From NCBI GenBank assembly GCA_019096065.1, contig JAGUCH010000003.1:10416001-10480000 (forward strand): a stretch of DNA of 64,000 nucleotides, given 5' to 3'. The DNA comes from Paracyclopina nana (taxonomy: Eukaryota; Arthropoda; Copepoda; Cyclopoida; Cyclopettidae). This document shows positions 1-64,000 of the stretch, in pieces. The notes beneath the pieces are model-generated. The model saw only the letters and a program-made list of their open reading frames with translations, did no database searches and had not been told where the DNA came from. How positions within the stretch are numbered: the first letter of the stretch is position 1; each line of letters starts with the position of its first letter. The translations under genes were made by a program, and so were the position numbers.

Positions 1-131
1 ATTTTTTGAGATATTATATCTAATATTATGCGCAGGTGAACCAGGCCTATAATGCTAAAAAACGCTATTACGGCTACGGTTATGGCAGATTTGTGAAAGT
101 CATCAACTTTGAGTGGAAGCTATTTATTTAG
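1..131 (+). other. Open frame at the window edge, overlapping a repeat end; possible terminal exon
   Basis: After a possible splice acceptor near base 36, a frame stays open for about 31 codons to a stop at 129-131. It contains a Tyr-Gly-rich stretch (KRYYGYGYGRF). The first 60 bases also match the end of the hairpin repeat seen at 26050-26465 (a GCAGGTGAACC-AGGCCTAT-type end), so the frame may be an accident of a transposon end. It could equally be the last exon of a gene that lies left of the window. No function is proposed. Confidence 0.2.
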
Positions 132-39500: not shown

Positions 39501-40126
39501 ACCAGAGTCAGAAACGTGGTTTCCAGAAGCTGAGTGATGATCAACGGCCCTTCAATTCGCATCAATGGGATCCTTGGAAAAAAACATGCATTTTTCAATA
39601 TTTATCATAGGGGAAGAAGACAACCAATATAGCTTTACCTGGGAAAGGCGATGGTGCCTTCATGCAAAGCGTAGATTTTAATCTCCCTCGTTGAAATCGT
39701 TTTTAAATACTGGAAGAACTCCTCTTCCACATTGGAAGGCAGAGCTTTGCGCAAGTACTCCAAGTCACTCTCGGAGTAGGTGAAATTCTCCAGGAATTTG
39801 AGGCACTCGGACAAGCCGGCGAAAATGGTGAATTCGCCATTGAAAGGGTTCTTCCGGAAGAACAAATCAAACACGGCCTGATCTTCAATGCGTCCGGCTT
39901 TCCAATACGCATACGCCATCGTGATTTGGTACAAATCTGCAATGGCAAAAATCATAGCAAAATGGAAGTTGGAGAGGGCAAAACTACGAGGTAAAATGGA
40001 GTTAATCGAGATGTTAGATTGACCTGTCAAGAGGGGTTGGATGATGGCATTTTGGCTCCCATGGGCATAGGACACGCAGGCATCCGTGTCCATTTTGGGC
40101 CTTTCCTCAGAGGCCTCGGAGGCCAT
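36536..40126 (-). CDS. NAPRT: Nicotinate phosphoribosyltransferase (NAPRT), NAD salvage
   Basis: Joins nicotinate to PRPP to make nicotinate mononucleotide, the first step of the Preiss-Handler route; cytosolic. Nine exons in phase: 40126-40024, 39936-39639, 39572-39489, 39359-39229, 38473-38158, 37851-37586, 37510-37281, 37175-36996, 36613-36536; 561 residues against about 538 in human. Family signatures are present: [18 protein letters not shown] at the N-terminus, [40 protein letters not shown] (the His228/His230 region, including the active-site histidine), RIDSGDL (phosphate binding, about 336-341), [11 protein letters not shown], and the C-terminal LYTLWWSDG region. No residue is obviously lost. 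An alternative first exon lies upstream at 40528-40561. Confidence 0.97.
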
Positions 40127-40527
40127 GATTTCAACTAAGTGTAGCGTTAGCTGAAACGAGTTAAGCGTTGGACGATCAACACTGAACTAAGCAGGGAAGG
40201 CCTCCAAATAGACGAACGTCACACACAAGTTTAATCAATATGCATGTTGAAGTGAGGAAGAAATCACTTTGGTGGTGCATAGAAACTCACTGCTGGTACC
40301 AAATAATACTGGATCAAAGTTGTTAGCAAATTTAAGGCTTGCAAATGTTCCCACAGTGGAATCTCATCAAAACAGCATAACAAAAAAAAAACGAAAAATA
40401 ATACATTTGCCCTTGGCTAAGAACACTTAAAGAAAGGTCTGCAATACAACATTGATTAAACAAGTCTTGTCCCAAATCAAGGCCAAAAAAGGCCATCAAC
40501 GTGTCAGGATTATTACTCAATACTCAC

Positions 40528-41341: not shown

Positions 41342-42328
41342 ATGGGATTGTGCTTGGGATGTTGCCCGAGGGATTCGGGTGATGAAAGCCCCGACAATGA
41401 CGGGGATCGATCCAGACTCATCAACGGGGAAGTTTTGCCAGGTGAAACTTCCAGCTCGTGGAATCCACAAGCCAGTGACTATGACAATGAAAATGTGCCC
41501 AATGGAAGCCTGGATGATTCTCACGTTGGTAAGAACTCAGCCATTTTTTACAGATCTAAAATTAGAATTTTGCTTCTAGAAAAATGAACCTGAATATGTC
41601 ATTTAAATCAAACTTGCAATATTTAACTTGATAAAAGGCTATTTTTAGTCTGTTCAATAATTACCAAAAAAACTAATGAAATCAAATAAATTGTCACGGC
41701 AGTGATTTAAAACAAGAAGACAAAGAAATGGTATCACACTCGATAATGATATTTAAGCATTTTTTCAATAAATTAGTATTTCATACCAATATCGAATAGT
41801 TATAATCACCTTATTTTTGCTGCAGGCTCCGGAATCCACTTCTCGTCGTCATTGCCCAAAACCAAGAAAACTGAGGAGCAAGCAGCCCTCTCTGATATTG
41901 TACACCACATGGCAACCAATATCATCGATGTAAATACTGCACACTCCACTCACACCTTGGAGCCATCGGAGCTGCAAGAACGAGCGCACGAGTATGGCCG
42001 CAAATTGGCCTCGGTCTCGGCCAAACTTGCCAACAAGTACAGCCATTTGAGGCTGTCAGCCTCGAGTGGGCTCAAGGATGCGGGGCATCAAGCTGACACC
42101 CTGATTGCCTCGGACATCTTGGCCACCTCTGACAAAATGCTGATTAACGAGGTCGCAGTGCGAGCTCGTGAGGCTGCCTTCGAGTTCCAGGTGGAGCCAG
42201 TGCCCAATCTGGTCCAAGTTTTCGGAAACAATGCCAATAATCACGAGGAGCCACGTGATGACAATGACGAGGATGAGGAAGTCAGCCAGCAAAACTCCGA
42301 AGAGGACGAGGATGACGAGAGTTCCTAG
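41342..42328 (+). CDS. LAMTOR1: Ragulator complex protein LAMTOR1 (p18)
   Basis: Lipid-anchored scaffold that holds the Ragulator complex, and through it Rag GTPases and mTORC1, on late endosomes and lysosomes. Two exons, 41342-41528 and 41826-42328, give 229 residues (human about 161). I chose the ATG at 41342 because it yields MGLCLGCCPRDSGDESPDND: Gly2 for myristoylation followed by cysteines for palmitoylation, as in the family. An upstream in-frame ATG would bury this signal. The core motif EEQAALSDIVHHMATNIIDV, followed by HEYGRKLAS, matches the family helix region. The C-terminal 25 or so residues form an extra acidic tail (DEDEE, EEDEDDESS) absent from the human protein. Poly(A) signal at 42512. 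Confidence 0.93.
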
Positions 42329-42581: not shown

Positions 42582-45500
42582 ATGATGCTGACGTCATCAT
42601 TGCCGAGTCCACTCCAGAAGCTGTCTGCGACCAGCTACTTGAACTTCCTGGAAGAAGAATGTGCCAGCTATGTGATGCTCACCAATCTGAACAGCGCCCT
42701 ATGGAATCCTGTCAAGGTGACCTTCATATTTACTCTTTATGCCAATTTTTGCATTACTATAGCGTTTTCATTTTCCCTGTCAATTTACATGTGAAAAAGC
42801 TTCAAAGTGTAGGAATTGAGTAAATTTGAATTATTCCGCCTAGGAACGATTGCTCAAATGCTTGAGAAATCATTTGAAGGCCTCCTTCAAGGCTGACAGC
42901 AAAACCAGCGGCCTTATTCGAAGCCTGCTGATGAAGGAAATCCTGCTTGGCCATTATCCGAGTTCAAAGTTCAAGAATGAGCACAAAATAAGGAATTGCA
43001 AATCTCCTTTTACTGATGATATCGTGGATAAAAAGTTGGCTACGATTCGTGTGAGTGGCAGACGCTGTTGCTCACCTTGTTGCACTGGAGCTTTCATCGC
43101 CGAAACCATGCTCGTAGTCCTCGTAAATCAAGACATCCACACCCTGGAATTCCAGCCAAATCTCTGCGACAAAATTTACCAGGTATTTGATTCCTGCTTA
43201 AAAAAGTCTCAGACTTTGCAGCTGTTCAAAAAATATGTCAGCCAGATTACCAAGGCTTGAAATTGGCGCTTTTTTTTTTTGGCCTTATATAAGTAAGGCC
43301 ACCAGATTTTCAGATTTTGACCCCACCTACTGCTGAGGTTAATCCGAAATCTTACTCCTACATGAGTTGTCATTCTTGAGTTTTGGTGCTCTTTGCATCA
43401 AAAGAAAGCATTATGAAAGATTTTGAAAATGTCATCATGGCATTTGTTGCTTTCCAGAATAAGGCCATTTCCAAGCTGCTCTCGTTCGACATCAACTCCA
43501 TTTTGGTGCACTACATTTTGTCCCTGAATGAGGCTGAGGAGAAAGGCCAATTTCAGGCACCTTTGTCTTCCTTGGTCATTGACAGTCCCAACATGGGATC
43601 GATGGCAAGCCAGAGCATCCACAGCAAAATGCTGAGACTTTTCGACGAGACAAGCACCCACGTCGATTACCCTTTCTCGTTGAGTAAAACGTACCCCATT
43701 CTGCAATTTGTCATGCTCTCCTTGGCTAACCTGTTTGACAGGCCTGCCAACTACTTTGGACATCTCACCCAGCTTAAGGTACTAAATACTAACTTACTCT
43801 CATGGGAAAAATGAATAGAATGCAATATATTGTGTGTACTTTTCAGCTGAGTGGAGAATGCATCAATTCTCGAGCCAAGGCCACAGGTCCTAAAGGCCAA
43901 GGAGTGGCCTCGATTATGGCCTGCATTGCTCGCACTTGCCCAGTATTGAAAATCATTGACTTTTCCAAAGTCACCTCAATCACTCCGGAATCTCTCATCA
44001 ACTTATGCTACAAGGTTATTATTATAATAATTTAATTAATTCAAGGCTATATAATTACTTTTCGTATTATGCAGGATACCTATCGAATTCTTCACAAATA
44101 CACGTATTTACGTGGCACTGACATGGATGGGCCTGTGGAAAAGCATGACCAAGTCCAAAACTGTAATTCAAGTAATGGCAGGAGAGACAAGTCCATTTTT
44201 GTCCTTGATGACCGGTTGTACCACTACATCGAGTCCAAGGCTGAAAATCCATTGGCTCTATTAGAGGATTGTGTCAAAGTGAGCCAATTGCTCGCTGCTT
44301 TCACTGATCCAATCAACTGCATGGATCACCAAGGTCACGCTCAAAACTCCTACACTTGAAACCACGAATTTTCTTTTCCATAATGTTGGCAAAAGCTGGA
44401 AAAATCCATTTTTTGTAGGCTTTAAGAGAAGCTGAAATGGCCTTTGTTTTTTCCTTCCTTCCCTGAAGGAAGGAAGAGAACTTTTTATTAGTAAATGATG
44501 ACAATTTGGTGTAGCAGTTTTGAGACTTTTCCCCAATAATTAAAGTTGCGTCTGAGGATCAAATCAAGGCTCCATTATGCAACTCTCTGGTCGAACTGAA
44601 GCTGCCCTCAGATGCCACCGACTCAAGATCCTGGATTTTGCCACTCTTCTTCGCAGCCATGCCCAATTTGACTACCTTGGGCGAAGCCAATGTCAATGAT
44701 GGCCTCAAGGTCTTGCAAGACTTGCTACCTCACCTGGAGGCCACCCGACGGCCTCTAGAATTGACTGAGGCTGTTGTCAGCCTCAAAGAGTCTGAGATTA
44801 CTCATGTCAAGGAAAACAATGCCAAAAGGTTGAACAGCTGCTCGTTGACCTCCACAATCTGGAATAATTTCATAGAGGCTGAACAAGGCCTCGGCCTCTC
44901 TGATTGGATATCCACTGACCTCCAGGATGACATCAAAGATGAGCAATCTCTGCACCAATTTTGGCAATCCCAAATTGAGACCCTCGTGTCATTTTGCCCT
45001 CAGTTGAAGACCCTGAAGCTTACAATCAAGTCAGGTGTACTGAGTCCCGATTCGACCTCCATTTGGCAGCCTCTGGCCTCACTCGAGAACTTGGACGATT
45101 TGAGGCTCAAAACCTCGTGCATGACTGATGTCATCAGCCTCTTGAAGGTCATAGGCTCGAAATTGGCCCATTTCAACTTGACCTTTTTCGACTACGAAAC
45201 TCCCATGGATTTGATCAATGTTGTGCCCTTCTATTGTCGAAATTTGAAACGAGTCTCTTTTGGCTTTTTGCCTGGAGGGCCTCATTCCATTGACAAAAAC
45301 ACAGAAGAAATCCTCGTTCGAGATCCAAAGGTAAAAAGGAGCTGAGCATAACCAGACTAATAGGGTTATCGTGGAGCCCTGAGCACATACAACGAGCTGG
45401 AGACCTGAACTTTGGCACGTGCATCTGTCTTCTCATCGCGGACAATAGTTATTAGCGGCATTTTTCGATTTTCCGCCAAATGACAGACTTCCATTTTTCT

Positions 45501-48500
45501 CCGTTCCCCGGCGACGAAATGAGCTGAATTTTTGTGTGTGACTCTCATTTTGCAAGGGCTACAACTTTTATTAATGACTTTTTTACAGATTTGGACTCCC
45601 AAGGGCACTTGTTTATGAGCGTTTTTCGTATTTTCGCGATATCTCAGGCAGGCCTCAACTTAATGGACTGAATTTTTGTGAGTGACCCTAATTTTGTAGT
45701 GCCCGCAACTTCTATTAATACTATTTTTGCGCAAAAAGATATTAAAGGGTACCTCCTTCTGACTGTTTCTTGCCATAATCTCATGCACTGCTGCCTAATT
45801 ATTGTGGCCAAGTCAGTGCTTATGTGTTATTTTTCAAACAACCCAAATTAGCATTTTTTTGGTAGTAAAAATAATTTATCTTAACCAGCCTTTTATTGCC
45901 ATTTTGCAAATAGGATTGGTTACTGAGAGTCTTTAAGAGTGTAGAGAAATACTTGAGCAGCTCCAATGCGCATTGATTGCTTCAAAGGTAAATCATCATT
46001 GACCTCAAGGTATTGAGTAGCAGTTTTGATAATGGAGTAGTAGTGTCCTGATGTCACACTTCCAGTGTGAATAATTGCTGAAGTAAGAGTGTATGTGACA
46101 TGAGATCCTCCTCGTATTGCCACTCTCAAATCTCCCCCAAGTTGAATGATGTCCTCAATCTTTCGTCCAACCTGATTTTCTGAATCCCATGTGAATCTTT
46201 CAATGGAGATGACCAAGATTGGTGTGGCAGTTTCAAAAAACATGGTGTTTCTCGTGTGGTACACTTGATGGCCATTGTCACACTCAGCTACACTTGGATC
46301 TTGCAAGAATAGCTCAAACTCTTCTTGGAGGCTTCCAGTTGGGACAGGTAAGGTGAAGAAAGCTCGCTGAACTGATTCACTTGGATTTGATGTACATCCT
46401 GGAGAGCATGAACAATGCTCTCTGCTGAATACATTGTATGTTACTGGCTGAGCTATTCTTGCACTTAGGAATCCAGGGTTCCTTGGAGAAGTTGCCATAG
46501 ATGCAAAGAAGTCCTCTGTAGACTTGTATGAGCTTAGGAAGCTTCCATCAAGCTCCAGACAGTGGACAAATGTTTTGAGAGCAGAAAAACCATCAATTAC
46601 CAAACTTTGATTGAGATTAGCCCATACATTTATGGCAAAATCAAAACCATTGGGAGGCTGTGGCAAAGCTGCTGCTTGATCTTGCTCCATGAAGTCACTT
46701 GTCTTTCTGACTGCCCATAAGAAAGCAGTCAATCCTGCACTAAACCAACATAACATTCTGTTGGTATTTGTCAATTGGAGGATGTTCAAGTCATAGTGGG
46801 GTCTTGCTAGAAATGAAAAGGCACATCAGTATAAGCAATTGCCATGCTTGCTTTTTCACACTTACTTGGCATGTCCTGATAGCCATAGGTTGAATCCAAT
46901 GACACTTGAGCAGGCCTGTCAGATAAAGAGGAAGCATTCATTGAGTCTTCTGCAATCAGATGCAATGACTGATCAGTGATATCAGTGGCGGTTGGCTGAT
47001 CATCACACTCCATGTCTTCATCCTCATCCAAGTCGGAGATCTCATCTCTTTCAGACGAATTGTCAGGGGTGTCTTGCTCTTCATCTTCTCCTTCACTGTT
47101 GCCAGCTTTCTTCAATCCATCACCTAATTCTTCAGGAAAAGCCTAAAGGTAAAGTATATTAGAATTTTGTATTTCATGCAAAGTATTAGATGTTTATGCA
47201 CCTTAGCAAAAGCATATGTTGGCTGCAGGTTTTGAGGATTCCTTGTGTCTGTCAGTGCCATTCTCACCACTTTGCTGGGCTTATACCAATCACCACAGGT
47301 GGTCAGGATAGTTCCAGCCAAGACATGCCCTCCAGTGCACATTGGCCTAGAGCAGACATCAGGGACTTCACTTTTGGAGCTGCACCTCCATCCATACAAA
47401 GATTTCAGCTCATGCTTTAAATTGAGCAAATTGTGAGCCTCATTTGCAAAGCAGAGCATTGTGTGCTTGTCAAATTTCCTATCAATTTATATCAACACAT
47501 GTTAAATTGTTTGGTGAATCAATTAATTATTTTACCTCGAACTCATGCTCCTGTTGGCAGAAGGAAATGTTAGGTAGACACAAAGGACACCACCATGGGG
47601 CCAAAGACCCATTGAATTTTCTTCCCAATCATCTGGTGGATCAGGCATGTGACGCACATGAAGCAGTAGGTCCTCTGGTAGCTCTTCAATGGCATCATGG
47701 AACTTGTTGAAATCCTCAAAGGTATCTTCAACAGGCTTCAGCTCCAATCTTCTTGCCATTGTGACATAGAAGTTAGCTCTATCAAGCCTATATGGTCCCA
47801 TTGCTATAAGCAAGGAAATCACATGATTCAGAATAACGAGAACAAATGGTTTTTATACCAAGCTGCATAAGTGCATCTTTGTGGTCCTCTGGAAGTTTTG
47901 GGATCTCTATTGGAAATGCCTCCCTATGCTCATCAAGTTGTTTCAATGGAAATACAGTCCAACCAGGGTCGCTTTTCTGTGGGCACTTATCAATCTCAAA
48001 TGAAAATTCAAGACCCACATCAAATCCATTGATCAAGTTAAGTCGCTGTGTGACCAAATTGACCATCTCAACCTGCTCAGTAGAGTTCAGGTACTTGATT
48101 TTGAACTTGGGGTGGCAGTCATTGTACATTCCCACTGTGCATCCATAGAGGACCTGGAGCTTTGGAATATTTCCAAAGTCAGGACAAAGGCTGCAATCAT
48201 AACACCAGCATAACATTTAGTTAATTGTGCAGTTACTTTTAAGTGCTATTACCCAAACTTCTTGACAAAAGAGGCTCCAATTATTCTCATGTATTGATGT
48301 AAAAGCTTTTGTGAGAACATCTTGTCCATCTTGATAGCAGAGTGACTCTGCTCAACTCCATGTCGAAGCATGCCAACTAGTCCTTTGTGATTTTTGATGA
48401 GAATATTGCTCCCAAGTTCATCTTTGATCGATTGGAATTTGAATTTCCCTGTTGAGGCTTTAAAAATAAATGAAACAATTCAAGCAACAATAAAAGGCCC

Positions 48501-51500
48501 TTATAATTTATTATACCTTCAAACTGTATTACTTCCTCAGCATCTCCAACAACAGGAGACAGAAATAATGCTCCAACAGACTGGCAGAATTCCTTGATGT
48601 TCACTAAAAAAACCTCATTTACATTGAACTACTCATGCATGAAATGTATTGAAATCCTTACAAATGTTGTCTGTGACATTCCTTGGATAATAGTCATAGC
48701 CCCTGTCTGCTACAACTACCACAAAAAACTTGGAAGTTCCTTTGATGAGGGTTGATAAACCACTTTGCAATTGATCACCACTTTCAGCCCTAGACACATC
48801 ATCTTTCAAGTAAAAGCCTGTCAGGATAGAATCACCATGAGCGGGGCTAATTGAGGCTGCTGCACTGGTAAAAAGCACTATAATCCCATCAGGAGTGGAG
48901 ACATTGCTGAGAGTCACATAATGTCCTATAACATATTTTTCTAAGACCAAACTTTTTTACTTTAGCAATGCTCATGTTACCTGATTTCTTGCTGTAATGA
49001 GTTGACTTTTGAAACTCTTGGTCAGTCCTCTTTTGCACATCAATCTGTTAAGAATTTATTAAGGAAGAAATAAAGCAGTGATACATTAAGGCAAAAAATA
49101 CCTTTGTGGAATCAAAAGCAAAAATGACCCCTTTTCGATTTTGGCCCAAAGGATCCTCAAATCGTGATGCAAACTCATAATAGTAGGGCTCTAATGATGA
49201 AACATGATTAATCTGAACAATTCAGTATGGATAAGCAGGATTTTTTACCTAACGAGCTCAAAACTGACTCAAAGAAGCTGTTGATCCTCTCCTCAGAAAG
49301 GTTCTTTTCAGACCACATTCGAGGAACTTGGTTAGATATGTCAAAATGCTGGATGGCAACATACCTATATATTAAGAATTAAATAGGACTCATATTGCTC
49401 AACTGGATTCAGCTTACCAAAATGCATCGGCAGTACATCTTTGAGACTTGGTGAACAAGATGCTCAGCAATCTAGTCCCTACATTGTGCCTCAACTTCAT
49501 CCTAAGGTTGAAGATGAATGTGAGAAATGAAATCATTTGTCAAGGCAAATAGAGCTTATACCTATACAGGAGAACTAGAGAAGGCAGACTAAGGTCCCCA
49601 GGTCTCTTTGTAAGCCCAGAGTTAGCCAACTTGTCACAAAGTTTCCAGAAAAAAATAGCTCTGTAGCCACAAAGATTGAAAAGCCATTCCTCAGTTAATT
49701 TCCATGGCTGCAGGAACATATTTTGGTCGATGATGGCAGATTTGGGATATCTGTAAGAATCAAATTAGTAAAAGCATGCTTGGCCAAACTGAATTCAGAA
49801 GAGCCAGCACCTGTGTGGAGAAAAAGGAAATCCTTTCTTCTTTGAGTACTTCTTGTACTCCTGCAAAGAATCATCCATGTCAAGTGGTTGCTCTCTGACA
49901 CTGACTTTTGGGGGATCAACAAGTGAAACATTGACAGTTTTCCCTCCATTGCCAATTGAAATAAGCTCTGCACCTTTTGGAACAAGAACCATTTCACTAA
50001 GGATGTATACAACTTCCATAGCTTCATTGAGAACTTTGATGTTGGCATCAATCACCAACTGGTTGCCTTGGCCATTTTCAACTTTCTCAACCAGAATAGA
50101 CTTGAGCAGTTGACTTCCTCTTGTGCACCCAAAACCCTCCATGCCACTCACATTCCTTAAACCAATTGGAACGGATAGAGGAGGAAAAACTCCAGGCAGA
50201 ACTATCTTCTGCTCATAGCAAATCAGATACTGATTCAAAGGAGAAAGCCCCTTGATCAAGTTCCCCAAGTGGCTGTTTTCTCCCTTTAAATAGTAGATAG
50301 TGATGTGAGATTCATCAATCGATTGGGCTTTGGTGCAAGGATGTTTCAAAAGCTTCTCCTTTTGGGTAAACCTTCTTCCACAAATAGGACAATCCAAGTT
50401 TTGGACTTTCTTGTGTGAAGAATACCTTACATGCTTGGCAAAGTTCTTGAAAGCACTTTTCCGAAAGTCAAAAATGGACTCCTCTTTGGGGCAAAGTCTG
50501 CAGTAGCCAACAGATTGAGTGGGCTTTGGGATCTGCAAAGTAAAAGAGGAGGTCAACACTTTCATGCTACATTATTGCAAAAATGAAATTTAGCAGGTTT
50601 TCTCTCATTACTGGGTGACACCTCATAAACCTCACCCACATCAATCACCTCACTCACCTCAATCACCTCACTCACCTCATCAACCTCACAATCCTCACCC
50701 ACCTCACAATCCTCTCCCACCTCATCAACCTCACAATCCTCACCCACCTCATAAACCTCACCCACCTCATCAACCTCACTCACCTCATCAACCTCACTCA
50801 CCTCACTCGCCTCATCAACCTCACTCACCTCACTTGCCTCACTCGCCTCATCAACCTCACTCACCTCACTCCCCTCATCAACCACACTCACCTCACTGCA
50901 CTCGCCTTGTATTACATAACCCATTGCTTATAAAACTCAGTAATGATGCCAAAAATCGAAAAATGCTCTGATTTTTTATCTCTTTACAGTTTTGGAATCT
51001 AGAAACCAAACTGAACACTTTTTATTACAAAGTAAAAAAGATAGCTCAGCTAGAAGTCTCCGTAAAACTCAGCAGTTAGGCTGCTATTAAGCGGTAAACT
51101 TTGGCGCGCGAAATCTCCGGTTCTAGACCAGAAACGGAGCGTCTCAGCACACTTCAATTTACTATTTTAAAGTCAGGCTGAGCTCCTCTACAAGTTTATA
51201 CTTTATTGTCAAGTCCATAAAATGACTTGGGAAGAAGTCGAGTTTTCCAAAGGGGTAGCTTTAGAAAAAGTGGCCGATTTTTAAAAGTACTCCAATTGAG
51301 CTGAAACTTGGTATGATTGGTCTCCGTCACATTTTGAGCAAATAATCTCAAGTAAACATATGCCCAAAAACGCTCAGCAGTGGAGTTATTCAGCCTCCCA
51401 TTTGACCCCATATTCAGAACTTTGCATAATAGCTCAGCAGAATGATGAGATATATCAAATGTTTTTACTGATAAATGATCACTGTCTTATGGGCTATTAT

Positions 51501-54500
51501 AAACTGTCATCAGTTTTTATCACAGCTCAGCTGGTTCTCAGCTGAGCAGAGTTTTATGCAGAGCATATCTGGCTAAATAACTCAGCTGCTGAGCTGCTGA
51601 GCACCAAATCCTTTGGTGTGCTGACTCATGGCATCTGGTAGATCATTTGTGCCAAGTCTCAGCCCAATCGGAGAACTCAGCGAAAATCAGCACTTTTTCT
51701 GGGGGCTCAGCAGTAGTAAACTTTGACGATCAATATCTCAGCAACGGAGCGTCCCTGCTCAGATCAATTTACTGTTCTGAAGTCGTGCTGAGCTCCTCTA
51801 CAACTTTGGACTTCAAAGTCAAGTCCACAAGTCCACATCCAAGTCCGCTTGTTCTGTACTGCTCAGCTCTCAGCGCTATCTCAGCTCGTAGTTATCCGAT
51901 TTTAAAACTATTTACTTCTATGGAATCCTGAGACTCAGCAAATTATTTTTTTTATTTCATAGCAAACGTGATATATCCACTTTTACTGCCGCTAGTTCTG
52001 AACGAAACGCTCTATGTAGTACGTAGTACATTAGGCTACCGTTTTCAAAAACTGCTCCGATTTTGGAGCTTTTTACAGTTTTGGAAATGGGGGATAATGG
52101 AACACATTTTATTACATAGTAAACAAGATAGCTCAGCTAGAAGTCTCCGTAAAACTCAGCAGTTTGGCTACTATTAAGCGGTAAACTTTGGCGCGCAATA
52201 TCTCTGGTTCTAGACAAGATATCTTGCCCCAATTTGAACCTGTGAAGTCAGGGCAACCTCCTCTACAAGGTTTATTAGAAGTCCAAGTCCGCATTTCAAC
52301 TTTAAATCGATCGCCCAAAATTTGACGGTACCCGTTTTTCGCGGAAATTTCCGCTTTAGAAGGCTATAATGTTATCAAATTCATGAAATAGTCAAAGAAA
52401 AGACTAAAAAGAAGACTTGGCAGCAAGGATTGCCCCTTATCCGTTACTTTTAGCCCCAAAAACAGAAGTAAGAATTCCCCCATTTCCAGCTGTTTCAGCC
52501 CCAAAAAGAGCGCCCAAGTGTTGCGCGGCGCGCGCCCAAGTGTTGGGCGCGCCCAAGTGTTGCGCGGCGCGCGCCCAAGTGTTGTGCGGTGCGTGCCCGG
52601 GTGTTGCCTGTTGCGCGAGGTGCGGCCTAAGAGGAGCGCGGGAATCAGAGACACTTTCGCTTTCTTACATTATTTTTTGGCGCGTTAATTGTTTTTGTAA
52701 TTTTTTTGGCCAAATTAGCGCATGAAATAAAGAACTTTTCTAAAAAGTGAGAAAGTACTGAAGAAATTGCACAATGGCATACCCAAATATATATATGCAC
52801 TTTTATGGTTTTAATGAGAAATTACATCCAATAACCTAAAACACAATGCACTGGCTCCACAGTCAACCAATCAAATTGCAGGAATCCCTGCGCAGTTGGA
52901 GCTCACTTTTTTATATAAATACAAGGGCCCCTTGGGGCATTTCAGTCAAATCTAGATCATTGAAGTAAACACTTCCCTTGGGCTATAGGATGGAGCTTTC
53001 ATGTAGAGTAAGTGAATTCTTGCTCATGAAATGCTATAAAACTGAAGCTACTAAGATGATTTTCATTTTAGTCGTACATTCATGGAGTAGAGGGACGTGC
53101 CCCAAGCACATATTTGTGTGGCTCCATATGCGAGGAGGGCTCCACTTTGTGGGCAGGGGCAATTGAGAATGAGGCCCAGAAACTGCTACTCCCTGGACTC
53201 ACAGTTTGCTCGGGAGACATGTAAGACTTTTAAATTCTTGAAAAAGGTGAATGCTTACAATGAGTTTTCATTTGCTAGGTGCAATGAGCGGTTGTGTAGC
53301 AAGACCTACACAGTGGAAATTGTGGCAAGCGTCATCTCAGCCATTTGCTTAATTGCAATATTGGTAGCAATGATGGCTAAGTTTAAGGCTGCGAAGGCAT
53401 TTTTGAGGTAAATCATGACAACAATATCTAATTTTTAAGCTAATTTTCTGTATATCTCTTAGCTCAATGTTTAACAGAGTTGCCAGACTTTGGCAAATGA
53501 AAAAGTCGGAAGAGGTAGATCTGGACCAAGAACTAGGCAACAGCAATGAGGCAACCGCCAACCCCAACCAATACTGTGGCATAATGTGAATACATTCAGG
53601 ACTCACTTTTTGGCTTTCAACTCTAAATCATCTGTGATATTCTAAATTAACTGTGATATGAGAAAAATAAATGTGATAGAATAAAAAGAATCAAAACTCA
53701 GCAGACTTTCACTTCCTTTAGTTTTAAGTGGAATTGCCAAATCAGTTTCAACTGAACTATTTATGTAGTACTTCATAGAAAAGGAGCAAAAAAGGTTCGC
53801 ATGAATCACATATAGGAGCGGGCTTATGTTTACCAAGCTACATTTGTCTTGACAGTGTCTTGACTGCTATGCTTAAAGCCTCTGCTTGCTACAAATGCAT
53901 GGCTGCATGTGAGGAGAGAAAGCCACATATTGCTGACTCTAAAATTCATTCGTAACAAAAACAGGTTCTCATTGATACTGTAGGTAGAGCAGAGTGTTTC
54001 GTGCTGGAATTGAAACAAGATGTTTCAATTTTGGCTTTCACTTTTTTATTTTGCAATTTTTTGCTCATTTGTCAGTTCTCAGGTAAGTCTATTGCATTGC
54101 TTTTGCATGAGTATAGGCATTAATATATATACTTTTATTTTCAGGCATCAGAAAATGAGTATTTTGTTATCCACAGATACTTTCACTATGGAAATCTGAC
54201 TGCCATGGGGAACCAATTGGCCAATGATCTGAGGAGAAGAATATCATTTTTGGAGAATCCTATTCCTTTGGGGTTGCCTACTGAAAAGGTTTTTATTGCT
54301 TTCTAAAGTGGAATTTTCCGAAAAACAGTTAGCATCATATATATTCGGGCGATCGGTTTAAAGTTGGTCTACGGTCTTTGACCACTTATAAAACTTGTAG
54401 AGGAGATTGCCCTGACTTCATTGGTTCAAATTGGGGCCAGATATCTGGTCTAGAACCGGAGATATCGCGCGCCAAAGTTTTCGCTTAATAGCAGCCTAAC

Positions 54501-57500
54501 TGCTGAGTTTTACGGAGACTTCTAGCTGAGATATCTTGTTTACTATGTAACAAAAAGTGTTCAGTTTGGTCTCCCATTTCCAAAACTGTAAAGAGTTCCA
54601 AAATCGGAGCATTTTTCGAATTTTGGCATTGAATAGACGGATGAAACGCAGCCTTATGTACTACGTACTACATAGGGCTTTTCGTTAAGAAGTAGCGGGT
54701 GTAAAAGTGGAGATTTCCAAATTGCTATGAAGTAAAAGTAGTTTCTGCTGAGTCTCTGGATTCCATAGCTGTAAAGAGTTCCAAAATCGGAGCATTTTTC
54801 GAATTTTGGCATTGAATAGACGGATGAAACGCAGCCTTATGTACTACGTACTACATAGGGCTTTTCGTTAAGAAGTAGCGGGTGTAAAAGTGGAGATTTC
54901 CAAATTGCTATGAAGTAAAAGTAGTTTCTGCTGAGTCTCTGGATTCCATAGCTGTAAAGAGTTCCAAAATCGGAGCATTTTTCGAATTTTGGCATTGAAT
55001 AGACGGATGAAACGCAGCCTTATGTACTACGTACTACATAGGGCTTTTCGTTAAGAAGTAGCGGGTGTAAAAGTGGAGATTTCCAAATTGCTATGAAGTA
55101 AAAGTAGTTTCTGCTGAGTCTCTGGATTCCATAGCTGTAAAGAGTTCCAAAATCGGAGCATTTTTCGAATTTTGGCATTGAATAGACGGATGAAACGCAG
55201 CCTTATGTACTACGTACTACATAGGGCTTTTCGTTAAGAAGTAGCGGGTGTAAAAGTGGAGATTTCCAAATTGCTATGAAGTAAAAGTAGTTTCTGCTGA
55301 GTCTCTGGATTCCATAGCTGTAAAGAGTTCCAAAATCGGAGCATTTTTCGAATTTTGGCATTGAATAGACGGATGAAACGCAGCCTTATGTACTACGTAC
55401 TACATAGGGCTTTTCGTTAAGAAGTAGCGGGTGTAAAAGTGGAGATTTCCAAATTGCTATGAAGTAAAAGTAGTTTCTGCTGAGTCTCTGGATTCCATAG
55501 CTGTAAAGAGTTCCAAAATCGGAGAAATACAAGTAGAGATAGCGCTGAGCACTCAGCAGTAAACAACTTCGTAAATGTAAGTGGTCTTAGAGCCTTGCAA
55601 CCCTGATAAAAGTTACAGATAATTTTATTACGAATTCATAGCATCAAAAAGAAGAAAGCTGAGACGCTTTGTTGCTGAGTCTAGAACCGGAGATATCGCG
55701 CGCTAAAGTTTACTGCTTAATAGCAGCCTAACTGAGTTTAACGGAGACAAGGAGCTGAGATATCTTGTTTACTATGTAATAAAAAGTGTTCAGTTTGATC
55801 TCCCATTCCCAAAATGGCTGTACATGCTACGCATTACAAAGACTTACTTACCTCAACTGTGTCATTGACAAAGCTTATTGCAGCACTGCAGTTTTTAACG
55901 ACAACGATACTGATGATGTTGCCTTCATTTTTTCGAGTTATTTCACACATTGCCTCGTAGGTCAAGTCTCTTGCATCTTCTTTGTGGAATGCCACGAGAA
56001 TGTCCCCTTTGCTTATAATGGGGACTTCACTAGATCTAATAATGAAACTGTCAGGGAATAATACGAGTATTGGCTGATTTTTCACCACTTTATAGTGAAT
56101 TTGGATTATTGCAGCCATGGCAAGGCTGCAATAAACTAAACTGTGTGGAAGAACTTCAAGAAGGGGTGCTTCGATGATCTTTGATAAGGAATGACCCTTG
56201 GGAGTGCATGCTCATAAACAAGCAAATATCCTAGATTAATTTTACCACTTCCATGATCTCTGACATTTTTTGAAAATGGCTTTGGCTACTTAAACTGCCA
56301 AAAGAAATTAAAATAGTGTTTTCTAATGAAAACATTAGAATCAAGGAAATTCATTATAAAAAAGCCATTTATCAATCACTGTTATCAAAGCATGCTGAAT
56401 AATTGTCTAACCTAACATAAAAAGAGCCAGCATGTAAAAATCATGAGCTCATAAAATGAGCATTGGTTTCGTGACAATATTTTTATATTAATTTTCTTCA
56501 ATTGTACTTTATTAATTTTAATCAATATAATTCTTCATCCAGCACTTTGTGGAATTGATCTTCAAGTAAGCCTAAATCAAAAGGATCAATTCATCTGCAT
56601 TGATATTTGTCCATAAAAGTTTATTTAAAAAGACTACTAATTATCAAATAATAAAACTTGCAAAATGTAACACTACTTCATGATCACAAGAGAATTGAAA
56701 TAACTTTCTAAACTTTGTTAGACTTTCATTAGGCAAATTACTTGCACATGAGCAAGGCAGACTACAAATCTGAACTTGAGCAGATGAGAAAGCTTGACTT
56801 ATGATTGTGGCTTTTTCTGTTTAGAAAATGCACACATGGCTCATGTTTTTAGCTAGCAAAATATACGGAAGACAATCTATTTTTCATGCTTCTGTTTTTG
56901 CTTTCCAGGTTTTGCACTACAACCCAATCATGGACTTTCAAAGGGCTGTTGAAAATACCGACTCTTATGTTCATAAAGTTACATGGGAGTCTCTTGTCAA
57001 ATTGGAATTGCTCAACAACAGGACAATGAAGAACTGGTTTACTGAGTTGGAGAGCATTGCACTTACTCCTCCCAAGAAGAATGGTTATGTCCAGGCCTTT
57101 CCTCCCAAGTCATCAAGCCCAAACACCTACATGAAAAAGCACCCTTCCATGTACTATTGCACTTATAAGAAAATAAGATATTTTCCCTCATATTTTTATT
57201 CAGTGAATGGGATATGGGTGACTTTGCATCAGACATTGTCACAATTGTAGTTTCACCCTCAAGCTTCAAAGCCAAAAAGGTTGCCAAACATTTGCAGAAG
57301 CTAGACAAAGAGTCAAGTATGAGTGCTTTGACTAAGAGTGATTTTTTTAGCAAGGTCATTCTTTTTTGCAGGCTACAACTTTGCTGCAAGCACATTGCAA
57401 GGTCAATCTCAAAAGCTGCTTTTGGAGTACTTGGATATCTCTGCAACAATGACTTTCTACCTGAATGGCTTCTTATCCAATGAGGTTCAACATCTGTCGC

Positions 57501-59305
57501 CCAGAATTCTACCCAAAGATGAGCTTGCACAGATTTTGGAGAAACTGAAGACCTATCTGGAGGCAAACAATATGGAAACAAATGTGACTGCCACATCAGC
57601 TTATGCTGAAAGGTTCATGGCAGACAAACAGTAGCTTTTCTTCACCATAACTTGCTCCATTTCAGGAATGTTAAAATCACCCGGACTTGGTCTGTCATGG
57701 ACCAAATAGTGGACATCAACATACTTATTCCTATTGCTCAGAAAAACTCAGACGTGACTAACCAGGGCCAAGATGTTAATCCTGAGTATCTGTCCATCTC
57801 TCTTGTGTCCCTCGTTGGAGGCTTTCAAATAATGCTTGCAGTGATTATTTGGTGCCTGTGGAAAAAAGTTCACAAGTTGTCTTCTCTGGCCAAAAAAGAG
57901 AGAAGAATTGAACTGAACAAGCTGGCTGAAGGCAGCATCCTGGGATGATTACTTCATGCCCAAACATGCCATTCATTTTATTGCAATATGTTCTCACAAA
58001 AAGTCTTACTCTATAACATTCTCATGCAATGTTATAATAAAATAATAAAAAATATAGTACTGATAAGTAGTGATCTGTTTTAAGCTAACTTTCAACTATT
58101 GTTAATCATTTGCAAACACTTCTAAAAAGGCTTAGCTTAAATATCCAAGCTCCTGTGACCCTTCTAAGGCAAGTGAAATCAAGAAAGACTTTGCAGGGTC
58201 ATGATTAACATAATTTAGAAGTTACGATGCAGATATATCAAATATATGCATAATGTTCATAAACAAGTGCATGGCATAGCCCGATTATGAGAAAAATGTA
58301 TTAATATAAGTTGTGGGGACTACAAAATTAGGGTCACTCACAAAAATTCAGTCCATTAAGTTGAGGCCTGCCTGAGATATCGCGAAAATACGAAAAACGC
58401 TCATAAACAAGTGCCCTTGGGAGTCCAAATCTGTAAAAAAGTCATTAATAAAAGTTGTAGCCCTTGCAAAATGAGAGTCACACACAAAAATTCAGCTCAT
58501 TTCGTCGCCGGGGAACGGAGAAAAATGGAAGTCTGTCATTTGGCGGAAAATCGAAAAATGCCGCTAATAACTATTGTCCGCGATGAGAAGACAGATGCAC
58601 GTGCCAAAGTTCAGGTCTCCAGCTCGTTGTATGTGCTCAGGGCTCCACGATAACCCTATTAGTCTGGTTATGCTCAGCTCCTTTTCCTTAATATTTAAAT
58701 GTCATTTGGAAGAAAGCAATTTTGGGGAAACTTTTCAATTCTAACAAGATTATAACTTGATTCCCACAACTTGAAACTCGTGACATTTCATATTTCAGTT
58801 TGAGTGCTTCAGTGGTTTGACCCATTTTGAGGCAGCCGGGCCAATGACTCAAAAAGCATTTTGCTTTGTGTGGAAACATGCCAAAAATCTGGAGAAGCTT
58901 GAGGTGACTGGAAAAATCATGACCAATGCTGAAGAATTCGTCTTCAAACCGATCATGATTGGTCCTTTGTTCGCTCTCAATCCAGCCCATAATCTGACCT
59001 TTTTCTGCGTGCCTTTGGCCTTTGACAGCATTGGCACAGCAACGCTCTTCCTCGACCATTTGCCCAAATCTGTCAAATTCGTGGCCTTACTGATGATCCA
59101 GGTCAATTTGGTGCCTGGTGCTGGCAATCTTGATGAAGTTGTGGGCAGAATGCAAGCTTTTAGAGATATCTGCAAGCTTCGAGAGGATCAGGATGGCTGC
59201 CAAATCAAATGGGAGTGGAAACCTGACCGGATGTTGAGCATCCATTTGAGGCATGCTGAAGAAGATGATCCTTCTTTCAACGTCTCTTCCACAGCCATCA
59301 TTTAG
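42582..59305 (+). CDS. Uncharacterised leucine-rich (F-box/LRR-like) protein, split by a transposon
   Basis: Seven exons join in phase: 42582-42716, 42844-43182, 43458-43778, 43847-44014, 44075-44333, 44546-45330, 58799-59305; 837 residues. The N-terminal 80 residues (LQKLSATSYLNFLEEECASY...) resemble an F-box-like helical region followed by scattered LRR-type segments (VLKIIDFSKVTSITPESLIN, FCPQLKTLKLTIKSG, LASLENLDDLRLKTS, NLKRVSFGFLPGG, NLEKLEVTGKI). No catalytic motif is seen. The last intron contains the whole 13.35 kb transposon, so the reading frame resumes only at 58799, directly after a good acceptor (CATATTTCAG). Both sides have the same phase and composition, which supports one gene. 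I do not recognise an ortholog. Exons 2 to 5 rely on splice choices (for example the acceptor at 43457) and are somewhat less sure than the last two. Confidence 0.72.
45334..45728 (+). repeat. Left terminal inverted repeat
   Basis: Pairs with 58291-58685. Identity stays high to about ATTAATA at 45720. It includes a subrepeat: two similar blocks each reading GAATTTTTGTG-GTGAC, around 45528 and 45671. Confidence 0.88.
45892..45897 (-). terminator. Poly(A) signal of the transposase-USP gene
   Basis: AATAAA on the minus strand, 23 bases beyond the stop codon at 45920. Confidence 0.6.
45920..50924 (-). CDS. Zinc-finger / DDE transposase / ubiquitin-specific protease fusion
   Basis: Fifteen exons join in phase: 50924-50622 (donor uncertain), 50532-49811, 49750-49562, 49501-49418, 49364-49249, 49190-49102, 49044-48981, 48925-48662, 48603-48517, 48457-48253, 48190-47859, 47803-47536, 47478-47202, 47142-46866, 46806-45920; about 1387 residues. 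Order: acidic E-V-S/D repeat (1-101); C2HC-like zinc fingers (YCRLC, then DCPICGRRFTQKEKLLKHPC); DDE core resembling DDE_Tnp_4 proteins, with candidates Asp about 498 (FAFDSTK), Asp about 596 (VVVVADRGYD) and Glu about 675 (RHGVEQSHSAIK); an acidic linker near 1010-1035; and a C-terminal USP domain with Cys about 1112 (NTNRMLCWFSAGLTAFL), His about 1347 (TGSVTSGHYYSII) and Asp about 1363 (EVNDD). Inferred role: mobilises the element; the protease may deubiquitinate the transposase or host factors. A start at 50565 would skip the acidic repeat. Superfamily assignment is tentative because the D-D and D-E spacings are long. Confidence 0.82.
50620..50905 (-). repeat. Acidic-coding minisatellite with repeated splice donors
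   Basis: The array consists of CTCACTCACCTCATCAAC variants; on the minus strand it reads as repeats of Glu-Val-(Ser/Asp/Gly)-Glu. Seven copies contain GAG|GTGAGT, a strong splice donor, always in phase 0. Confidence 0.85.
50990..51190 (+). repeat. Internal transposon repeat, copy 1
   Basis: Shares long stretches with 52060-52280: AAGATAGCTCAGCTAGAAGT, CTATTAAGCGGTAAACTTTG, GGTTCTAGAC. Confidence 0.8.
52000..52290 (+). repeat. Internal transposon repeat, copy 2
   Basis: Direct copy relative to 50990-51190 and inverted relative to 54390-54600; it also includes the TAGTACGTAGTACAT motif found reversed in the 183 bp array. Confidence 0.8.
52506..52610. repeat. GC-rich tandem repeat
   Basis: Four to five copies of a unit close to GCGCGCCCAAGTGTTGCGCG with variation, in an otherwise AT-rich element, about 300 bases upstream of a TATA box. 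Confidence 0.8.
52912..52919 (+). promoter_or_regulatory. TATA box
   Basis: TATATAAA, 71 bases before the ATG at 52990. Confidence 0.5.
52990..53589 (+). CDS. Transposon-borne single-pass membrane protein with CaaX-like C-terminus
   Basis: Four exons in phase, 52990-53007, 53072-53220, 53279-53407, 53463-53589; 140 residues. The N-terminal 70 residues carry six cysteines plus a proline and acidic stretch (TYLCGSICEEGSTLWAG; VCSGDMCNERLCSK). A TM segment follows (VEIVASVISAICLIAILVAM), then a basic juxtamembrane stretch and an acidic tail ending Cys-Gly-Ile-Met, a good CaaX prenylation signal. No cleavable signal peptide is seen, so the N-terminus may be exported through the TM as a signal anchor. 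Its short introns have clean GTAAG donors and the frame is undamaged. A TATA box lies upstream and AATAAA at 53666. The family is not recognised; a structural or delivery role for the element is only a guess. Confidence 0.7.
53666..53671 (+). terminator. Poly(A) signal of the CaaX membrane-protein gene
   Basis: AATAAA, 77 bases after the stop codon. Confidence 0.6.
54020..57948 (+). CDS. Transposon-borne type I membrane glycoprotein
   Basis: Six exons in phase: 54020-54082, 54145-54288, 56909-57150, 57204-57316, 57372-57630, 57666-57948; 367 residues. A signal peptide fills exon 1 (MFQFWLSLFYFAIFCSFVSS). The ectodomain of about 290 residues has N-glycosylation sites (NLT, NRT, NVT) and almost no cysteines. 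One TM lies near residues 325-345 (ISLVSLVGGFQIMLAVIIWC), followed by a basic tail of about 28 residues. The 2.6 kb second intron holds the 183 bp tandem array and an antisense PDZ-like frame. The donor of exon 3 (CCAT|GTACTA) is weak but keeps phase and gives an open join. The layout recalls surface or envelope-type glycoproteins found in some virus-like elements, but I see no furin site or fusion-peptide signature and no recognisable family. Poly(A) signal at 58036. Confidence 0.68.
54390..54600 (-). repeat. Internal transposon repeat, copy 3 (inverted)
   Basis: Reverse complement of copy 2. Together with copy 2 it brackets the CaaX gene and the first two exons of the glycoprotein gene. Confidence 0.8.
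54586..55524. repeat. 183 bp tandem array, five full copies plus a part
   Basis: Units start at 54586, 54769, 54952, 55135 and 55318, with a partial unit from 55501. The start points differ by exactly 183 bases and I see no differences between units. Each contains ATGTACTACGTACTACATAG. The array lies in the second intron of the glycoprotein gene. Confidence 0.92.
55675..55815 (-). repeat. Internal transposon repeat, copy 4 (inverted, partial)
   Basis: Repeats CTAGAACCGGAGATATCGCG and TATCTTGTTTACTATGTAAT from copy 3. Confidence 0.75.
55834..56118 (-). CDS. PDZ-like open frame inside the transposon
   Basis: A single open frame of 94 codons starts at ATG 56118-56116, antisense within the long intron of the glycoprotein gene. 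The middle reads SKGDILVAFHKEDARDLTYE and ends ISIVVVK. This fits the second half of a PDZ domain (GD-I/L-V-N-G-x-D, the helix 'T-x-E-A', then the last strand). The usual carboxylate-binding GLGF loop is not clear. It may be a stand-alone small adaptor carried by the element, or a captured exon fragment of a host gene. No promoter is evident. The resemblance is by eye only. Confidence 0.4.
   Translation of the reverse strand: MAAIIQIHYKVVKNQPILVLFPDSFIIRSSEVPIISKGDILVAFHKEDARDLTYEAMCEITRKNEGNIISIVVVKNCSAAISFVNDTVEVSKSL
56119..56908. other. Intronic stretch of the transposon
   Basis: AT-rich DNA between the PDZ-like frame and exon 3 of the glycoprotein gene. Nothing further seen. Confidence 0.5.
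58036..58041 (+). terminator. Poly(A) signal of the glycoprotein gene
   Basis: AATAAA, 88 bases after the stop codon. Confidence 0.6.
58291..58685 (-). repeat. Right terminal inverted repeat
   Basis: Reverse complement of 45334-45728, ending GGTTATGCTCAGCTCCTTTT. Confidence 0.88.
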
Positions 59306-62415: not shown

Positions 62416-63631
62416 GCCTTTTCTCAACTACAATGGTAGGCTGGTAGCAATAATCACATTCCTGGGAAAATAGGGAAAAATCCAGGTCAGAGTACACTTG
62501 GTTCCAGTTGGCAAACAAGTGGGCATACATGAGAGGTCCATAGATCCTGTGGCTGTTAAAGATGACCTTGTCTGGTCCAGAAGGAACTCCGATTAAAGCT
62601 TTGGCCCTTGGCTTCAGTATGCACCAAGATTTGGCCATGCCAATTAAATCTCCCCAAGGATTTAAACTGTCTCCATACCTGGATAGATAGATTCAAATAT
62701 TGGCGTTTTTGCCCTATTTTTGGCTCTTTTCCAAGTACTGCGTCTACCTGCCGAGACCAGAATGCTCCAATGAGGAATATGAAACAAGACCATCGAAAAG
62801 AGGCAAAGTTCCTTGCAGGTATTTCTCGTTCATGTCAAAGGTGGTCATAACTTCAATTTTGGGGTGAGCACTGGCAATTTTGACATAATCCACTGAGGTC
62901 ACTTTTTTGGCTCCTTTACTTAGCAAGATCATTTCAATCCAAGGAGATTGGGAGCCAAGCACCAAAATGTGCTTGTCTTTCACCTCGAAATGAGAGTCGA
63001 TCATTTGCTCAATTTCTTCTACTGCAGCCCTTCCATAGAAGCCTGCAATAGCGTTTTTCCACTTATAGTATACCACTTTAAAATTGGTAATTTTTGGCAA
63101 TTTACCATGCAAGGTACCCTCGTTAATTCGCCGTTCGAGTGTTTCGAACATTTCCATCGTCCAATTTGAAAAGTGAGTCGAACCTTTCGAGTCGTCGCGA
63201 TAATAGTAATCAATTTGGACTTGGCCGTTATAACCGTAATCGTGGTATAACCATTTTGGTATACGCATTGGAGGCTCGTCAAATTGGCCGGGTGTGTCGA
63301 TACCGTGATTTTCAAAAAGGGCCTGGCAGTTGACCTTTTTCGAAATTTGATCGAAATAACGGCCCTTGTCTCCTTTTCTTTCGGATGTATCGCAAATTTC
63401 CCCACATGACTCTTTGATGGAAGCCAAATTCGTCTTCAAATTTTGGTAGATTTCCTGGCTGGTCAACTTTTTTGGTGGTTTGCCATTTTGCTCGTCTTCA
63501 AAATGAGCCGAGTATTTCTGCCTTACTTTGGAGATGCTCTCATCATCTGTGTGGAAATACTGGTTAATGTCAATTGTTGACTGGGCAACATGGCCGCAAA
63601 AAAGGGCGAAATGCAGCGCAGCCAACTGCAT
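62411..63631 (-). CDS. DUF268 family protein, secretory-pathway methyltransferase-like
   Basis: Two exons, 63631-62748 and 62678-62411, join in phase to give 383 residues. I chose the ATG at 63631 because it begins a signal peptide or anchor (MQLAALHFALFCGHVAQS). The C-terminal half carries the family marks: HILVLGSQSPWIEMILLSKG and TSVDYV (a Rossmann-like SAM-binding look), LVSYSSLEHSGLGRYGDSLN, NPWGDLIGMAKSWCILKP, and FNSHRIYGPLMYAHLF, ending in PTIVVEK. DUF268 proteins are known from nematodes and other invertebrates and have no established function; methyltransferase resemblance is an inference from fold-like motifs. N-terminal residues 20-150 look lineage-specific. A TATA-like TATATA lies near 63720, about 90 bases upstream of the ATG. 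Confidence 0.9.
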
Positions 63632-64000
63632 TTTGATCAAATGGTTACTGAAGAAAACACCTGAGTAATCTTGCTATCTACCTGTGAAAAATAAGTCACC
63701 TGGTCAACAAATCATTACTGTATATATTAGGAAACGCGCTTGCTTGCTACGTAACCTTATAAATATCACTTAAACATAAATCTCAATTTTTGTCAGATTT
63801 TAAGCTAAGGCAACAAGAGGTACATAACTTTTTCTCAGATTTGGTATACTCTACTATACCAAAGGATGTAGGAAATTAGCAATTAAAGAAAAAAAACCAT
63901 TTTTTTTTTTGTCTGAAAACAATTTTTGATCAGAAACTCTGTTACTACATGAAAATTGAGTTCTCTTTTTGTCAGAATACTAAACTTTTTGCCAGGTATT
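63632..64000. other. Upstream region of the DUF268 gene
   Basis: Nothing coding is seen. A TATATATTA at about 63720 could serve as the TATA box on the minus strand. Confidence 0.4.

Follow-up and report, generated by a model that had tools for sequence, protein, structure and literature searches.

A stretch of 64,000 nucleotides from the copepod Paracyclopina nana (the window, part of contig C3 in a 92-Mb genome of 10 contigs) contains what we read, with a probability of about 0.8, as a giant Spy-like cut-and-paste transposon that keeps a selected module of likely membrane proteins. The element is a real transposon, documented by other copies, by empty sites and by purifying selection. The original prediction that no described family resembled it proved half right. 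Its transposition core and mode of insertion are of the Spy type, and what sets it apart is the fusion of a ubiquitin-specific protease (USP) to the transposase together with the membrane cargo; no USP-fused or membrane-cargo element of the PHIS superfamily was met in the literature searched, which comprised open-licence papers only.

The element and its copies in the genome

The predicted unit was a 13.35-kb transposon at 45334..58685 with nearly identical terminal inverted repeats (TIRs) of about 395 bp. We found that the inverted repeats at 45334-45727 and 58292-58685 (394 nt, 99% complementary) have target DNA, AAAA and TTTT, as their outermost bases, and the unit was therefore trimmed to 45338-58681 (13,344 bp). 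Counting these bases as part of the TIR was rejected because empty sites contain them. The unit and its repeats thus stood, and four bases on each side were reassigned to the target. After trimming, the TIRs measure 390-391 bp with three mismatches and one gap over 391 columns. The left TIR (45338..45727, + strand) begins GGAGCTGAGC, with host AAAAA (45333-45337) outside it, and the right TIR (58292..58681, − strand) ends GCTCAGCTCC, with host TTTT (58682-58685) outside.

A genome search with the TIRs, in which 40 of 134 candidates were scored, gave at least 47 matches. Seven of the 47 were second matches inside the same repeats, and the remaining 40, with two further partners, were grouped as at least 17 head-to-head pairs and eight single ends. 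Thirteen of the 17 pairs span 2.9-6.7 kb. The other four are long and delimit full elements of 10-16 kb, namely the window copy (element A, 45338-58681), element B (C6:1567894-1577959), element C (C2:14455208-14471174) and element D (C6:6479247-6493727). Other copies with the same ends therefore exist, and the cargo of A recurs in C and D and, without the glycoprotein, in B. Neither outcome that the original prediction had named as refuting, a single copy or cargo lacking from every other copy, was found.

Incomplete copies were also recovered. A short TIR pair at C1:10484155-10490870 carries transposase residues 725-1295 only, and a single-ended copy at C2:10622323-10627185 matches transposase residues 31 to 1243, its N-terminal exon adjoining the TIR. 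Searches with the cargo genes gave no match in the latter, indicating that cargo retention is not universal. Two 4.8-kb derivatives (C8:4326813-4331600 and C7:1415672-1420460) have both TIRs and a piece of the small transmembrane (TM) gene, and neither yielded a match in the searches with the transposase, the glycoprotein or the PDZ-like ORF. A 15-base TIR-like match in locus L069 (E 0.21) was not accepted as an element end.

Insertion between AAA and TTT

The bases AAA lay directly outside the terminal G in 27 of the 31 ends examined; the exceptions were a single AGAA, a truncated end and the two ends of a degenerate element (L054). When left and right ends were considered together (n=11, leaving out L052, L053 and L054), ten pairs had AAA before the left end and TTT after the right end, and the eleventh was the one with AGAA. 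The flanks of ten elements were joined and searched in the genome, 40 of 528 candidates being scored, and those of four elements (B, C, D and a further one, C7a) matched paralogous empty sites across the junction. Empty sites of B were found in many places (best 99%, 162 of 162 bases), that of C was identical over 160 bases (100%), those of D lay in ten places (97-98%; eight of exactly the query length and two longer by 2 bases), and that of C7a matched at 99% over 163 bases. A few weaker matches of B differed in length by 1-3 bases, and no empty site of the other six elements was seen among the 40 of 528 candidates scored. Since the best matches of B, C, D and C7a had neither gained nor lost bases, these results indicate insertion between AAA and TTT without target duplication. 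The comparison of copies proposed in the original prediction thus fixed the ends at AAA/TTT, with no duplication at the empty sites of four of the ten elements.

A transposase fused to a ubiquitin-specific protease

The transposase-USP fusion gene (45920..50924, − strand) has 15 exons encoding 1297 aa. Its domains follow the order N-terminal C2H2-like zinc finger, helix-turn-helix (HTH) plus DDE core, and C-terminal USP/UCH domain. The gene model of A was made by manual splicing on GT-AG signals, and the genes of B, C and D were found with a purpose-written spliced aligner that penalises stops. With this aligner the fusion reads without stops in all four full elements, and the proteins are 60-65% identical among A-D and 98.6% identical between C and D. 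The first exon (50892-50924, −) gains no support from relatives, as the aligner recovered it from none of B, C and D, and the C and D models splice the acidic linker in another way; given the stop penalty as well, these parts of the models are uncertain. A minisatellite of 18/27/45-bp units (50619..50896) lies in intron 1 of the transposase model and overlaps its start at the edge.

The last exon (45920..46806, −) encodes the protease domain, with candidate residues C1022, H1257 and EVND (1270-1273). The domain matched UCH (PF00443) at E 8e-10 (39.2 bits, cut-off 23.9), and 4/4 elements keep the Cys, His and Asn/Asp motifs of a USP; judged by the profile match and these motifs, the fused protease is of the UCH/USP deubiquitinase type. 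The transposase-protease fusion announced by the original prediction is, as modelled, a single open spliced gene, and the three main genes said to be intact after splicing were all found present and open.

Exons 3-10 (48253..49750, −) encode the HTH_Tnp_4-like and DDE_Tnp_4-like core, for which the Pfam matches were weak. HTH_Tnp_4 reached E 0.0017 in B, and DDE_Tnp_4 reached E 0.0023 in C, 0.0029 in B and 0.089 in A, all below the curated cut-offs, in the order expected of PHIS transposases. Because these scores are below cut-off and the same scan returned a chance-looking match to RdRP_2 at E 0.0036, the fold is unproven by the Pfam matches. Candidate catalytic residues D408, D506 and E585 are conserved in all four elements; the D-E spacing is 78. 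The N-terminal C2H2-like finger (E 0.0026) was likewise below its own cut-off. Searches of 5.8 billion proteins, a collection of uncertain eukaryote content, gave no relatives of the whole transposase at E 0.001 and none of the DDE profile at E 0.01, and the DDE profile met nothing relevant in the PDB.

A module of predicted membrane proteins

The type I TM glycoprotein-like gene (54020..57948, + strand) has six exons encoding 361 aa, with a TM segment at 309-334 and a short tail. The protein thus has the TM of the original prediction, and the putative signal peptide is read from the hydrophobic N-terminus. The proteins of A, C and D share sequons at two positions; the ectodomain is free of Cys in A and contains a single one in both C and D. 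The gene has the same six-exon structure in A, C and D (A is 37-40% identical to C/D) and is absent from B, so that three of the four full elements carry it. Beyond these elements the genome search matched it only in a fragment at C1:15498191, which lies next to a weak transposase remnant. Intron 2 of the A gene measures 2,620 bp in place of about 50 bp; it is enlarged because a satellite and the PDZ-like ORF lie between exons 2 and 3, and it shares its donor (GTTTTT) with C. The satellite is a 183-bp tandem repeat of 5.2 copies (54578..55524). The A gene is thus read as split by a 2.6-kb intron with an antisense PDZ-like ORF, and its six-exon product is predicted. No relatives of the glycoprotein were found at E 0.001 among the 5.8 billion proteins of that same collection, and its profile gave no match in IMG/VR and no convincing match in the PDB.

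The small TM gene (52990..53589, + strand; four exons, 140 aa) is present in all of A-D. As predicted, it is open after splicing and has a CaaX-like end (CGIM). The A protein has a single TM and no N-terminal hydrophobic stretch. Six Cys precede the TM in A and B, and five are invariant in the part aligned across A-D. A and B have the first mini-exon (MxLSCRS) and the CGIM terminus in common; C and D have other ends. The profile of this protein had no match in IMG/VR and no convincing match in the PDB. Just upstream of the gene, at window positions 52912-52946, TATATAAATA is followed by an initiator-like site, TCAGT, and the two together make a plausible promoter of the small TM gene.

The PDZ-like ORF (55834..56118, − strand; 94 aa plus stop) lies antisense inside glycoprotein intron 2. 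The genome search found it once in each of A, B, C and D and nowhere else, and a chance ORF was rejected on its presence in all four full elements. A PDZ_6 match was obtained in one of the four ORFs (E 0.025, weak), and three of the five hits of a profile search in the PDB were PDZ chains (E 0.45-1.1), none of them convincing. A single-sequence structure model had a pLDDT of 35 and was discarded. The predicted frame is therefore conserved, and its PDZ identity rests on weak matches.

Selection on the cargo and possible exchange of modules

We estimated dN/dS by the Nei-Gojobori method; in comparisons of A, B and C/D with one another every dS is above 1.8 and rough, and several dS values are saturated. 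The transposase gave 0.12-0.21 over six pairs. For the glycoprotein, the C/D ratio was 0.31 in the aligned part and 0.35-0.43 on the full gene by three methods, the ratio for A against C or D not being computable. The small TM gene gave 0.10 (A/B), 0.19 (A/C) and 0.24 (C/D), and the PDZ-like ORF 0.17 (A/B) and 0.16 (B/C), the other three and four pairs, respectively, not being computable. All computable pairs thus fell within 0.10-0.43. Conservation of the cargo in other copies, which the original prediction had named as support for a true element, was seen for the small TM and PDZ-like genes in 4/4 full elements and for the glycoprotein in 3/4. At the thresholds used, the close cargo matches found elsewhere in the genome were confined to shortened or decayed relatives of the element. 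Together with the other copies and the empty sites, purifying selection gives good support to a true transposon whose membrane-gene cargo has been kept repeatedly.

The gene order varies. In C and D it is transposase (−), PDZ-like (−), glycoprotein (+), TM (+); in B it is transposase (−), TM (+), PDZ-like (−); and in A it is transposase (−), TM (+), glycoprotein exons 1-2 (+), satellite and PDZ-like (−), glycoprotein exons 3-6 (+). At the base level, C and D are 98.9% identical in the transposase and 99.3% in the PDZ-like ORF, compared to 90-93% in the TM and glycoprotein genes and 80-92% in many other aligned blocks. This unevenness suggests exchange or conversion of modules among the elements.

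A distant sister family

Diverged transposase-USP genes, with identities of 31-47% in single exons, were found at C8:5797475-5801810, C1:13040004-13044007, C1:9905261-9909601 and C9:837145-841574, and USP pieces alone at C5:106764, C1:1305465 and C3:1940645. Five of the seven loci have type I TM ORFs at a distance of up to about 1-3.5 kb (C8:5792646-5801810, C1:13040004-13049402, C1:9905261-9911904, C9:837145-846058 and C5:106764-109275), and none was found near C1:1305465 or C3:1940645. The C8 locus and the one at C1:13.05 Mb each have two divergent TM copies, and one sister glycoprotein copy (L062) has a broken frame. Against the A/C/D glycoprotein profile, one of the sister TM proteins was collinear over 223 columns at 22% identity, with a score of 24.8 where 100 shuffles reached 22.2 at most (E 0.011, HH probability only 3.8%). 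The following sister piece aligned at the next position (E 0.045, probability 1.2%, without shuffle control), and HMMER matched the sister exons to the glycoprotein at E 0.0084 for one and about 0.6 for two others. These comparisons are suggestive, not proof, that the sister-family proteins are perhaps homologous to the A/C/D glycoprotein. On the boldest reading, to which we give a low probability, the glycoprotein would already have been present in the ancestor shared by these two families, whose split is deep.

Relation to known transposons and alternative readings

According to the published descriptions, Spy elements of the PHIS superfamily insert between AAA and TTT without target duplication, and those described have a single gene, the transposase (PMC4482050), of more than 500 aa with a DNA-binding domain and a DDE domain (PMC4482050, PMC11304231). 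In an active Spy (cgSpy), whose ends span 467 bp, insertion was seen without duplication (PMC11304231). The window element resembles Spy in its AAA/TTT insertion without duplication, its long TIRs and the length of its transposase, more than 500 aa, in which the DNA-binding and DDE domains are candidates from matches below the cut-offs. It differs in the 1297-aa transposase with fused USP, in the 10-16 kb of the full elements, and in having four genes in A, C and D and three in B. Since the insertion mode is that of Spy and the gene content differs, we call the element Spy-like, a likeness drawn from its target behaviour and the published descriptions, and do not count it among the Spy elements.

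Membership in Maverick/Polinton, ISL2EU or PIF/Harbinger was rejected on the gene content of the ORFs scanned and on the empty sites, which showed no target duplication. Maverick/Polintons are large elements with TIRs that encode a protease and, in some lineages, have membrane or fusogen genes; their hallmark genes are polymerase B, a retroviral-type integrase and capsid; Teratorn includes a herpesvirus part. The 10-16 kb size, long TIRs, protease and membrane proteins are shared with the former, and a virus-like element of that kind which has lost capsid and polymerase is nevertheless barely credible here. No polymerase, capsid or retroviral-type integrase was found in the ORFs scanned (the domain scan covered a subset of the window ORFs), the same short gene set recurs in four elements (B without the glycoprotein), the core is DDE_Tnp_4-like, the empty sites show no target duplication, and the two membrane proteins had no IMG/VR match. 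Teratorn is described as a 180-kb composite with a piggyBac-like transposon (PMC10175614). Our element likewise joins a cut-and-paste transposon to extra genes possibly serving spread, but it has four genes and no viral genome. As for ISL2EU, also a PHIS group, the published account reports an HTH plus DDE core, GG ends, sometimes long TIRs (up to 259 bp), an AT duplication and two genes, the second being YqaJ, and states that ISL2EU and PIF/Harbinger groups make AT or TWA duplications (PMC4482050). The HTH_Tnp_4 and DDE_Tnp_4 superfamily signature, the GG ends and the long TIRs would suit a conventional ISL2EU or PIF/Harbinger element in which the ORFs are there by accident. We regard this as very unlikely, for neither AT nor TWA duplications were seen at the empty sites, neither YqaJ nor Myb/SANT, the mark of the second gene in PIF/Harbinger, was found in the ORFs scanned, and the cargo ORFs are conserved and under selection.

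What the cargo does is a separate matter. Large DNA transposons can carry captured genes, and the cargo might consist of host genes travelling as passengers without a role in the element's life, which would agree with the transposase copy at C2:10622323-10627185 without cargo match and with the lack of the glycoprotein in B. We consider this unlikely, as the cargo has been kept across elements whose transposases are only 60-65% identical, its dN/dS is 0.10-0.43 where computable, and none of it was found outside elements or remnants in the genome at the thresholds used. A selected module could instead act inside the host cell as a host-manipulation or anti-silencing device, by receptor or immune modulation for example, or with the USP stripping ubiquitin marks, and not as a transfer device. 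The USP, the PDZ-like ORF and the CaaX-like TM tail are signalling-type parts, the type I ectodomain is without a conserved Cys, and searches of the PDB and IMG/VR matched no known fusogen; against it, the hydrophobic N-terminus, two conserved sequon positions and a Cys-rich ectodomain suggest a place at the cell surface or in the secretory pathway. We put its chances a little short of even. That the membrane module serves transmission between cells or into the germline we rate slightly lower; cell-to-cell transfer, which the original prediction had suggested, is possible on the signal-peptide and TM anatomy.

For the Spy-like transposon with a selected membrane module, the following mechanism may be proposed. 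The transposase, through its zinc finger, HTH and DDE domains, would bind the ~390-bp TIRs and excise the unit, which is inserted between AAA and TTT without target duplication, as the empty sites demonstrated. The fused USP would most likely deubiquitinate the transposase or chromatin/host partners, protecting the transposition complex. The type I glycoprotein, the small Cys-rich TM protein and the PDZ-like adaptor may act at the host-cell surface or membranes, and our best guess is that they would favour spread, for example by adhesion/fusion, germline entry or manipulation of host signals. DNA transposons often move between species, and a cut-and-paste transposon with selected membrane-protein genes makes one possible cell-to-cell route testable. 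With a DDE transposase fused to a deubiquitinase, transposition may moreover be tied directly to the ubiquitin system. The Spy group, described so far as single-gene, may gain a giant multi-gene branch.

The host locus

Element A appears to lie in an intron of a host gene (45331..58798, + strand). The splice signals, GT at 45331 for the donor and AG at 58797-58798 for the acceptor, are in phase with open frames on both sides, and the host intron without the element would be about 124 bp. The flanking ORFs of the host gene (44524-45342 and 58784-59302) are in phase, the predicted exons being 44524-45330 and 58799-59305, and a Pfam scan of both ORFs gave no match. Ordinary host genes are found nearby, with matches to DUF268 (62747-63673, −), NAPRTase (39638-40186, −) and LAMTOR (41777-42325, +).
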